The position numbers and the translations under genes are program-made. Of a stretch of DNA of 64,000 nt, positions 22,129-35,173 are shown in pieces. The DNA is from Candidatus Eremiobacterota bacterium. Its GTDB lineage: Bacteria > Vulcanimicrobiota > Vulcanimicrobiia > Vulcanimicrobiales > Vulcanimicrobiaceae. Every line of letters begins with the position of its first letter. Position 1 is the first letter of the stretch. The notes under the pieces are model-generated. The model was not told the DNA's origin. It was given only the letters and a program-made list of their open reading frames with translations, and made no database searches. The DNA lies in assembly GCA_019240525.1 (NCBI GenBank), contig JAFAYE010000001.1:1833300-1897299 (forward strand), written 5' to 3'.

Positions 22129-22433
22129 AGTCGATATCGGTTGACGAGCTGGCGCGGCGCATCGAGGGTCGCGCAACGCCGTTTTTGCTCGACGTTCGGG
22201 AGACTTGGGAAATGGCCGACGGCGTTATTCCCGGTTCGGTCAATATTCCGATGGACGACGTCGAGCTTCGTCTCCGTGAGGTTCCAGCCGATCGCGACGT
22301 CGTCGTCTTCTGCCATCTCGGCGTTCGCAGCGCACACATCACAAAGAGGCTCAATGAGCTGGGCTACGATCGGGCAATGAACCTGCGCGGGGGCCTCGAC
22401 GCCTGGCTCCGAGCCTTTCCTGTGTCATCCTGA
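22125..22433 (+). CDS. Single-domain rhodanese with apparent CTG start
   Basis: The protein reads KSISVDELARRIEGRATPF and LLDVRETWE, then has the active-site loop FCHLGVRSA with the catalytic Cys, giving a typical 102-residue sulfurtransferase domain. The only AUG-type starts in this frame lie deep inside the preceding hydrolase gene. A CTG at 22125 overlapping the hydrolase TGA (CTGA) gives the standard family start. The last residues (VSS) and the stop codon are supplied by the REP-like repeat beginning at 22421, so the native C-terminus may have been slightly altered. Confidence 0.78.
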   Translation: MKSISVDELARRIEGRATPFLLDVRETWEMADGVIPGSVNIPMDDVELRLREVPADRDVVVFCHLGVRSAHITKRLNELGYDRAMNLRGGLDAWLRAFPVSS

Positions 22434-22532
22434 GCTTGTCGAAGGACGACCCTTCGACTCGCGCTGCGCGCTCGCTCAGGACTGCGCTTCGCGCAGGCAA
22501 AATTGTGTCATCCTGAGCCTGTCGAAGGATGG
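22421..22532. repeat. Composite REP-like palindromic repeat, copy 1
   Basis: The core TCCTGAGCTTGTCGAAGGA (from about 22428) is followed by an inverted unit CCTTCGACTCGCGCTGCGCG ending near 22481, then by TCCTGAGCCTGTCGAAGGAT (about 22511-22530). The same modules occur in the opposite order and strand at 35150-35264, and a single core lies at 34416. The sequence can form strong hairpins and lies between convergent genes, so it may work as a bidirectional terminator. It also provides the rhodanese stop codon. Confidence 0.85.
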
Positions 22533-33007: not shown

Positions 33008-35173
33008 GTGGCGCGCATGCTTCAATTCGGTGTCGCAACGGCCGACCATCAATGCGAAGCCTATGACGGGCGCGACGAGATTCGCGACGTTTGGGAGCGA
33101 GTACGCGGGCTTGTCGCCCGTGGCAAGGCCACCGACTTTTGGAACCGCTATCCTGAAGACATCGAACTGGCGCGCGGGCTCGGCTGCACGATGTTCAGAC
33201 TTTCGCTTTCGTGGGCTCGGCTCGAGCCCGAACCCGGCGAGTGGAACGACGAAGCGTTCGCGCATTATCGCGACGTGTTGCAAGCAATTCGCGACGCGGA
33301 GATGTCGGCGATCGTCACGCTCGTGCACAACACCTGGCCACTCCACGTCCAGGCCGCCGGTCGTGGCGCCGGGCTGCTCGATCCGGGCTTTCCGGATCGT
33401 CTTGCGAGCTTCGCCGATGAAGTCGCAAAGCGGCTCGGCGATCTCATCGCCGACTATGTAACACTCAACGAGCCCGATCAACTCGTCTACGGCTGGATCA
33501 AAGGCTTCTGGATGCGTACCTACGCGATGCCGCCTGGGCAGCCGCCCTATGCCACCGGCGACGAACAGATGGACGACGTGCTCACGCTCATTCCAAATCT
33601 GTTCCGTGCCCATGCCAAAGCTCGTGACGCGATTCGCCGCAGTCGCCCGAACGCACGAGTAGGCACGAACCCACTTGTCTTGGGCCTTCCTCGATGGCTG
33701 CAGCGTTTGATCGACCGCAACGCAACGCAGCTGCAATCGCCCGCGGCCGCAAAGCGGCAAGTGGCCCGCTTTGCGACAGCAGCGATCGTCGAGGGCGGTC
33801 GGGTCGATTGCTCGATCGCGCAGCTCACCATGACCTTGGATCGCCAAGAGCACTCGTTTTTTTCAGAGCCGTACTACTGCACGCCGCTTGCCGCTCTGCA
33901 CGCGAGCACCACTGCTCTTCCCAGCGAGCCCTTGACCTGGCGCGGAAGGATCGCGGTTGTTGCCGCCACGCTGCCGGCGAGCAGCGTCGGGGGCTGGTTT
34001 CCGGCGGCAACGATCGCTTACTTCGATGCGATGCCGGATGCAGTCGCAGCGCTGCGCCACGGCGACGTTGATGCGGTCTTCGACGACGAGGTAACGCTGC
34101 GGGAATATGCCGGCGACGCGTTTGCGCTCACGCCGCTTCCGCGTTCCACGCAGTATTTTGCGGTCGCGATGGCCTTGGGCAGTCGCACGCTGCTCAACAT
34201 CGTCGATCGCGCCATTCGCGATCTGCGACGTCACCATCCGGAGATGCCGATCGCCGACAATCGGAAGACGATCGCGCACATCGGTCGCGAAGAAGCTGCC
34301 GCCGATTCGCACGAGCGGGTTCCCGACATGGATCCCGCAATCGCGCGCATTCGCAAACGCGGCGTGCTGCGCGTCGGCATCCATTCGCACGTGCCGGGCT
34401 TGTGCACGGAACGCACCCTTCGACAGGCTCAGGGTGACAAGAAGGGAGCGCGCTACGAAGGGCTGGAGCCCGATATCGCAAGGCGGGTGGCGCAACTGAT
34501 TTTCAATGATTCAACGCGCGTTGAGTTCGTACCACTGCGCGGCGAGCGCCGTCTGAACGCGACTCGATCGTCGTGGCTGCACGCGCTCTTTACTCTACGC
34601 AAGGCGTTCGGAATCTTTACGACGTTGTTGGGCACCAATTGGTGGAATCTCGGTTTGGCCGGAAAACTGCCGGAGTTTCTCTGTCCGCGCGAATGCGTCG
34701 GGGCGCTCGACTACGTCGGTCTCGACTACTATTGGGGGGTTCCGTCGTTTTGGCCGCGCGAGCTGCACCGGCTCGACGCCGCATCCGACTTTAACTATGC
34801 TAACGCCCCCGTCTGGCCCGATGCGCTCGACCTTATCATCCGCGAAGCCGAGCAAGACTTTCCCGGCAAGCCCATCATCATCATCGAGAACGGCTGCGTC
34901 GCCCGCGTGCCGGGCTTCACTCGCGCGGACTATCTTCGGGCTCACGTTAACGAAGTGCGCAAGGCGTTCGAGCGCGGCGCCCCCGTCGAGGCCTATCTCT
35001 GCTGGAGTATCACGTCGAACCGCGAGTGGGGATTGCGGTTCGACGACGGCAGCGATTTCGGTCTCTACCACATCGATCTCGACACCGATCCGGCCCTGCA
35101 GCGAAAGCCGACCGAATCGAGTAGCGCGTATGCTCAACTCATTGCCGCTCGTCCTTCGACAAGCTCAGGATGA
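33008..35173 (+). CDS. GH1 beta-glycosidase with an inserted, order-reversed solute-binding-protein domain
   Basis: Residues 1-240 are a family 1 glycosidase start (FGVATADHQCEAYDG; acid/base Glu155 in VTLNEPDQ). Residues about 520-705 are its end (LDYVGLDYYWG; nucleophile Glu627 in IIIIENGC; YLCWSITSNREWGLRF). Between them sits an SBP_bac_3-like module in two pieces. About 258-409 is the later part of a solute-binding protein (GGRVDCSIAQLTMTLDR, FFSEPYY, ALRHGDVDAVFDD). About 443-518 is the early part (IARIRKRGVLRVGIHSHVPG, ARYEGLEPDIARRVAQLIF, VEFVPLRGERRL). Normal order is the reverse. No signal peptide is seen, so it appears cytoplasmic. A REP-like core lies in frame at 34416, and the final residues and stop come from another repeat. 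ATG 33017 is an alternative start. Confidence 0.8.
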   Translation: MARMLQFGVATADHQCEAYDGRDEIRDVWERVRGLVARGKATDFWNRYPEDIELARGLGCTMFRLSLSWARLEPEPGEWNDEAFAHYRDVLQAIRDAEMSAIVTLVHNTWPLHVQAAGRGAGLLDPGFPDRLASFADEVAKRLGDLIADYVTLNEPDQLVYGWIKGFWMRTYAMPPGQPPYATGDEQMDDVLTLIPNLFRAHAKARDAIRRSRPNARVGTNPLVLGLPRWLQRLIDRNATQLQSPAAAKRQVARFATAAIVEGGRVDCSIAQLTMTLDRQEHSFFSEPYYCTPLAALHASTTALPSEPLTWRGRIAVVAATLPASSVGGWFPAATIAYFDAMPDAVAALRHGDVDAVFDDEVTLREYAGDAFALTPLPRSTQYFAVAMALGSRTLLNIVDRAIRDLRRHHPEMPIADNRKTIAHIGREEAAADSHERVPDMDPAIARIRKRGVLRVGIHSHVPGLCTERTLRQAQGDKKGARYEGLEPDIARRVAQLIFNDSTRVEFVPLRGERRLNATRSSWLHALFTLRKAFGIFTTLLGTNWWNLGLAGKLPEFLCPRECVGALDYVGLDYYWGVPSFWPRELHRLDAASDFNYANAPVWPDALDLIIREAEQDFPGKPIIIIENGCVARVPGFTRADYLRAHVNEVRKAFERGAPVEAYLCWSITSNREWGLRFDDGSDFGLYHIDLDTDPALQRKPTESSSAYAQLIAARPSTSSG
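34416..34439. repeat. Single REP-like core inside the GH1/SBP gene
   Basis: CCCTTCGACAGGCTCAGGGT followed by GACA matches the core of the repeats at 22421 and 35150. It is read in frame as TLRQAQGDK, placed between the first strand and first helix of the binding-protein half, where such proteins tolerate a loop. Confidence 0.75.

Follow-up and report, generated by a model that had tools for sequence, protein, structure and literature searches.

A gene at positions 33008-35173 (forward strand) of a 64,000-nucleotide stretch from Candidatus Eremiobacterota bacterium (contig JAFAYE010000001.1; the whole stretch is hereafter called the window) encodes a member of glycoside hydrolase family 1 (GH1) that carries a solute-binding protein (SBP) domain of the SBP_bac_3 family, inserted in circularly permuted order. 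This protein is a new combination of known families. The gene consists of a single frame of 721 codons without interruption, and an in-frame ATG at codon 4 (33017) offers an alternative start. On balance, we lean towards the reading that the product is a cytoplasmic GH1 beta-glycosidase with an inserted sensor, in which an amino-acid-type ligand would gate hydrolysis. Note that relatives are denoted below by locus (L) and genome (G) numbers where they have to be told apart.

The Glyco_hydro_1 (PF00232) match of the window protein was above the curated cut-off (E 5.6e-40) and split into two stretches. The N-terminal GH1 part (residues 1-257, 33008-33778), delimited by the Pfam match at 7-221, predicted secondary structure and the fold match, comprises beta1-beta5 of the barrel plus two additional helices (229-240 and 245-256) that, according to the predicted secondary structure, belong to the beta5-alpha5 connection. 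The C-terminal GH1 part (residues 521-721 and the stop codon, 34568-35173), assigned by Pfam, alignment and model, holds helix alpha5 and beta6-beta8. Sequence and alignment agree with a preliminary description of this DNA, made from its letters alone, in placing both catalytic glutamates within the one frame, namely the acid/base Glu155 (LNEP, residues 153-156; codon 33470-33472) and the nucleophile Glu627 (IENG, residues 626-629; codon 34886-34888). Both were invariant across 40 aligned sequences. Furthermore, Q15, H107, N154, E155, E627, W666, E673 and W674 are all present in the window protein and invariant in the members with a two-lobe insert.

The AlphaFold2 model of the whole protein, a check that the preliminary description had proposed, was made with an alignment of 40 sequences and had a mean predicted local distance difference test score (pLDDT) of 84.5 and a predicted template modelling score (pTM) of 0.86, with predicted barrel strands at 6-10, 62-66, 100-106, 149-154, 217-221, 570-573, 623-627 and 660-666. 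In VIA-align, model residues 1-715 matched the solved GH1 structure 5ns6 (Z 36.0, root-mean-square deviation 3.1, 381 of 438 residues), and since solved GH1 enzymes are matched across this whole range, the predicted barrel closes around the insert. Domain insertion is supported by the two-part GH1 match, with SBP_bac_3 between its parts, as well as by the closed barrel of the model. The predicted insertion site lies in the stretch connecting beta5 to alpha5, on the face of the barrel that bears the active site; the insert would begin past the two extra helices after beta5 and lead into helix alpha5 (522-537). A relative whose insert lacks SBP lobe 2 (L075) was predicted with a pLDDT of 83.7 and matched GH1 structures with Z up to 39.7. 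The insert of the window protein was predicted with good confidence, and the listed structure-search matches (Foldseek/VIA, for the window model and L075) were GH1 chains; the proposed SBP fold of the insert rests on its sequence and predicted secondary structure.

The insert spans about residues 258-518, with GH1 sequence restarting at about 521, and SBP_bac_3 (PF00497) was matched at residues 261-408 over profile positions 54-118 (E 7.8e-8). The canonical N-to-C order is absent, the C-terminal part standing ahead of the N-terminal part. When the halves of the window insert were put in normal order (about 441-518 followed by about 262-413), the score rose to 43.6 bits versus 36.1 bits in native order, and the match covered profile positions 16-118. 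The reversed halves of the preliminary description were seen again here, with the boundaries corrected to those above. The C-terminal part and the reordered insert matched SBP_bac_3; the N-terminal half of the window protein (about 441-518) alone matched no Pfam family, being too diverged. The corresponding half of the cyanobacterial relative L052 alone matched profile positions 1-56 (E 7.6e-9), and the reordered L052 insert gave one match over positions 1-130 of 132 (105 bits, E 3e-30). The reordered L052 insert also aligned over nearly its full length with the binding protein of a glutamate transporter, 5eyf (E 1.8e-43), as well as with the reconstructed ancestor AncQR and Mycobacterium tuberculosis GlnH. 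Free-standing binding proteins of the same cyanobacterial genomes have the halves in the opposite order within one frame; specifically, a 269-residue frame of Chlorogloeopsis (G061) aligns with L052 residues 462-529 and then 258-410. With a nearly complete SBP_bac_3 match restored by reordering in L052 and the opposite order in free-standing paralogues, the circular permutation is genuine. Domain insertion, permutation and cytoplasmic location all withstood the refuting conditions that the preliminary description had set. That description had gone further in holding that such an insertion would need exactly this permutation, which is too strong, as permutation is one solution. Note that a haloacid-dehalogenase match (370-497, E 0.00043) was below its cut-off; as it extends across the linker of the permutation, we took it to be a chance match.

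Along the chain, the insert opens with a lobe 1 segment up to hinge 1 (residues 258-298, 33779-33901), which was assigned by the profile match and contains GRVD, the TxTxxR motif with the ligand-contact Arg279, and FSEPYY. Lobe 2 with Asp360 follows (residues 299-383, 33902-34156; alignment), and past hinge 2 the return strand and helix of lobe 1 (residues 384-411, 34157-34240; profile match and model) make up the native C-terminus of the binding protein. A linker between the natural C- and N-termini (residues 412-440, 34241-34327; alignment), with low model confidence around 431-440, leads to the N-terminal half of lobe 1 (residues 441-518, 34328-34561; profile match and free-standing paralogues). 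The inserted protein, of the polar-amino-acid-binding type, was opened anew in a lobe 1 helix ahead of the ligand-binding strand, and its natural ends were joined by the linker.

Homologues with the same order, for which the preliminary description had suggested a search, were found in Eremiobacterota, cyanobacteria and Chloroflexota. A strong match was present in 52 of 149 genomes of the phylum Eremiobacterota. Full-length colinear relatives occupy 17 cyanobacterial loci, mostly of Nostocales and including the isolates Fischerella PCC 9431 and Chlorogloeopsis PCC 6912; only 2 of the 292 drawn cyanobacterial genomes carry a relative. A few more occur in Chloroflexota (L065 and L097), and L072, titled Proteobacteria at NCBI, comes from a genome drawn from the phylum that also contains the Chloroflexi genome G065. 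The permutation point is identical in all full-length colinear relatives across the phyla. When reordered inserts and free-standing binding proteins were placed in one tree, a branch (91/84, not starred) separated the former from the latter, which is consistent with one origin. Some Chloroflexota relatives lack the insert. The insert-less sequences are L081-L083 (50-53% identity) and the early-branching L099 (G164:C99), in which about 90 residues of unrelated sequence link beta5 to alpha5. On the tree of the GH1 part, insert presence and absence requires two changes, and a single clade of all insert-bearing sequences was not rejected (approximately unbiased test, p-AU 0.29), so that a single gain of the insert is possible. 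A genome of the window's genus encodes, besides a close copy (77% identity), a second and more distant full-length copy (L025, G003:C3:75088-77244; 55%), and split or fragmentary copies are few (G010/L020 and L078).

The family thus shows three architectural states: a two-lobe insert (the window protein and most relatives), an insert without lobe 2, and no insert. Nine sampled Eremiobacterota sequences lack the equivalent of query residues about 299-383, from hinge to hinge, with the frame continuing. On the tree of the GH1 part alone, this loss took four changes, the test rejected a single clade of lobe-2-less sequences (p-AU 1e-15), and different lineages have different hinge junctions, indicating from the sequences that lobe 2 was lost independently at least four times in Eremiobacterota. 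Catalytic residues are retained in all lobe-2-less sequences but one. The remaining one (L076:5752-7482) has NAP for NEP, that is, Ala for the acid/base Glu, and a run of unknown residues; this copy is possibly inactive or reflects a sequencing problem.

Among two-lobe members, Arg279 is present in 49 of 49 and Asp360 in 44 of 49, the window protein included in both cases; we take these residues to be the carboxylate-binding Arg and the amino-group-binding Asp of known relatives, with the roles carried over from the family. Given this retention, allosteric gating by an amino acid, as had been proposed, is plausible from the sequences. Position 274 is Thr or Ser in 14 of 14 cyanobacterial and Chloroflexota sequences, and Thr in 26 of 35 two-lobe Eremiobacterota. 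Pairwise ratios of nonsynonymous to synonymous substitution rates (dN/dS) were 0.05-0.12 for the barrel, 0.07-0.18 for lobe 1 and 0.06-0.39 for lobe 2, indicating purifying selection on all three parts, with lobe 2 looser in the window's phylum. The highest lobe 2 value (0.39) was that of the window protein versus L004.

There is no room for a signal peptide in L007, L008 and L070, whose stop-to-stop frames extend only 0-9 codons upstream of the conserved GH1 start; therefore, a cytoplasmic place is inferred for the family, in agreement with the preliminary description. No transporter genes were present among the neighbour families examined.

In the mechanism that we consider most likely, the two lobes of the insert would close on an acidic amino acid or a comparable small ligand. 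The lobe movement would travel through two junctions, one of them a few residues from the TxTxxR strand and the other leading into helix alpha5; since both junctions sit in the lobe 1 helix immediately preceding the strand with TxTxxR at its end, the coupling path would be short. The beta5-alpha5 loop would thereby be reshaped where the active site faces the aglycone, and alpha5 would be altered as well, so that hydrolysis would track the amino-acid level of the cell. The sensor looks intact in cyanobacteria and Chloroflexota, where both lobes and the ligand residues persist and amino-acid gating is likely judging from the sequences. It seems to be diverging in Eremiobacterota, and gating is less certain in the window's own lineage with its faster lobe 2. 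In several Eremiobacterota lineages, deletion of lobe 2 has left only one lobe as a remnant, and the enzyme is presumably ungated, as gating by a closing cleft is impossible in such members. We hold only tentatively the fuller account, in which a natural ligand-gated glycosidase arose by one ancient insertion of a permuted SBP into a GH1 barrel, its hydrolysis of a cytoplasmic glycoside came under amino-acid (nitrogen) control, and its gate was later dismantled by repeated lobe deletions.

Several observations weigh against a working gate. At least four separate losses of lobe 2 left the enzyme in place, so that binding, and gating if present, is dispensable in some hosts. Thr322, found in 14 of 14 cyanobacterial and Chloroflexota sequences, is mostly replaced in Eremiobacterota, and dN/dS of lobe 2 in that phylum is 0.12-0.39 versus 0.05-0.12 for the barrel. 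An alternative is that the insert is structural or vestigial, shaping or capping the beta5-alpha5 connection or aiding assembly with its ligand binding unused, and with any sensor role fading in Eremiobacterota. The hinge-to-hinge deletions left lobe 1 under purifying selection (dN/dS 0.09-0.18 in two lobe-2-less pairs), position 274 is not Thr in any of the nine lobe-2-less sequences, and a good fold is predicted for the lobe-2-less protein, all of which would speak for such a role. However, the two-lobe members retain Arg279 and Asp360 to the extent given above, and the nearly complete SBP profile of the cyanobacterial inserts together with a constrained lobe 2 (dN/dS 0.06-0.22) exceeds what a scaffold needs, so that we regard a structural or vestigial insert as rather unlikely.

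Gene neighbourhoods may hint at the substrate. In cyanobacteria, where the upstream regions of L052-L063, L069, L077 and L079 were compared, one upstream set comprises a GMC oxidoreductase, an epimerase/3-beta-hydroxysteroid-dehydrogenase-like protein, an alpha/beta hydrolase, an acetoacetate-decarboxylase-like protein and a patatin, and another a P450, a RoxA-like cytochrome and a metallo-beta-lactamase-fold protein. As these conserved neighbours are of that type, a lipid or terpenoid glycoside is suggested as the cyanobacterial substrate. The GMC, hydrolase and patatin neighbours share, as judged by eye, a similar accessory segment (...NDPGFDxWxDxTT...). A neighbourhood common to all loci was not seen in Eremiobacterota, and short-chain dehydrogenases adjoin the gene in some. 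In the window, the gene and one for an alpha/beta hydrolase point away from each other, and an NHL-repeat protein is encoded downstream.

The beta5-alpha5 region of GH1 enzymes contributes to the aglycone subsites, and the insert is predicted to lie in this connection on the catalytic face; it could hence be a substrate-capture module that holds the aglycone or product of an amino-acid-bearing glycoside beside the active site, with no remote switch. We consider this improbable, as insert-less and lobe-2-less relatives share the same barrel residues and the lipid/terpenoid-type neighbours of the cyanobacterial genes do not point to amino-acid glycosides. An assembly artefact, a frameshifted pseudogene or a chance resemblance, for which nothing speaks but the initial oddity and the few split or fragmentary copies, can practically be dismissed, since dozens of independent assemblies, spanning three phyla and including cyanobacterial isolates, have the same order, and every part is under purifying selection.

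The window also contains an interspersed repeat, TTCGACAAGCTCAGGGTGA, in four copies where none is expected. One copy (34419-34437, forward strand) lies within the coding sequence of the SBP insert, where it accounts for an extra loop (about residues 471-477; repeat search, alignment and model) of low model confidence, and L003/L030 have extra residues at this loop. Another (35155-35173) terminates in the gene's own TGA stop, and two further copies are at 22425-22443 and 22508-22526 (reverse strand).

The reading of an enzyme with a built-in sensor can be set against known systems. With GH1 beta-glucosidases and beta-glycosidases (PF00232; 4r27, 1vff and 5ns6), the window family shares the TIM barrel, the NEP and ENG glutamates and the glycone-site residues; it differs in the binding domain of about 260 residues in the beta5-alpha5 connection and in motifs of its own (ATADHQCEAYD, NWWxLGMAGKLPxFLC and SNREWG). 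With SBP_bac_3 binding proteins of ATP-binding cassette (ABC) transporters (5eyf for glutamate, M. tuberculosis GlnH 6h1u, and 2v25), the insert shares two lobes, judged by sequence, and the TxTxxR and Asp ligand residues. Unlike them, the insert is circularly permuted and embedded in an enzyme, has no signal peptide and is not a subunit of a transporter. SBP_bac_3-like domains are coupled to other activities in MltF-type lytic transglycosylases and ionotropic glutamate receptors; however, MltF is a tandem fusion, in the receptors a channel interrupts a binding domain of normal order, and a glycosidase barrel holding a permuted domain is found in neither. Ligand-switchable enzymes have been engineered by domain insertion and circular permutation of binding proteins and hydrolases. 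For example, xylose stimulates the activity of the xylanase XynA inserted in a xylose-binding protein (PMC4896006), and beta-lactamase/maltose-binding-protein switches employ circular permutation (reviewed in PMC6335823). Such switches likewise unite a binding protein and a hydrolase by domain insertion, some in permuted form, and let a ligand tune catalysis, and judging by architecture they are the closest analogues; they are man-made with the enzyme inside the binding protein, whereas here a permuted binding protein lies inside the enzyme, as known from sequence and model. A reconstructed ancestral GH1 glycosidase is modulated by heme (PMC7810902; 6z1h/6z1m), a reported case of allosteric small-molecule modulation of a GH1 barrel; there, the heme sits on the barrel and no extra domain is involved. 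Our literature search, which covered mostly papers outside subscription journals, turned up no report of a naturally occurring GH1 enzyme into which a binding protein is inserted.

Taken with these analogues, the family looks like a natural version of the engineered sensor-enzyme hybrids. As two-lobe, single-lobe and insert-less members stand on one tree, the origin, working and decay of such a switch can be tested directly. If the proposed gating is true, amino-acid-controlled glycoside metabolism would be possible in cyanobacteria and Eremiobacterota.
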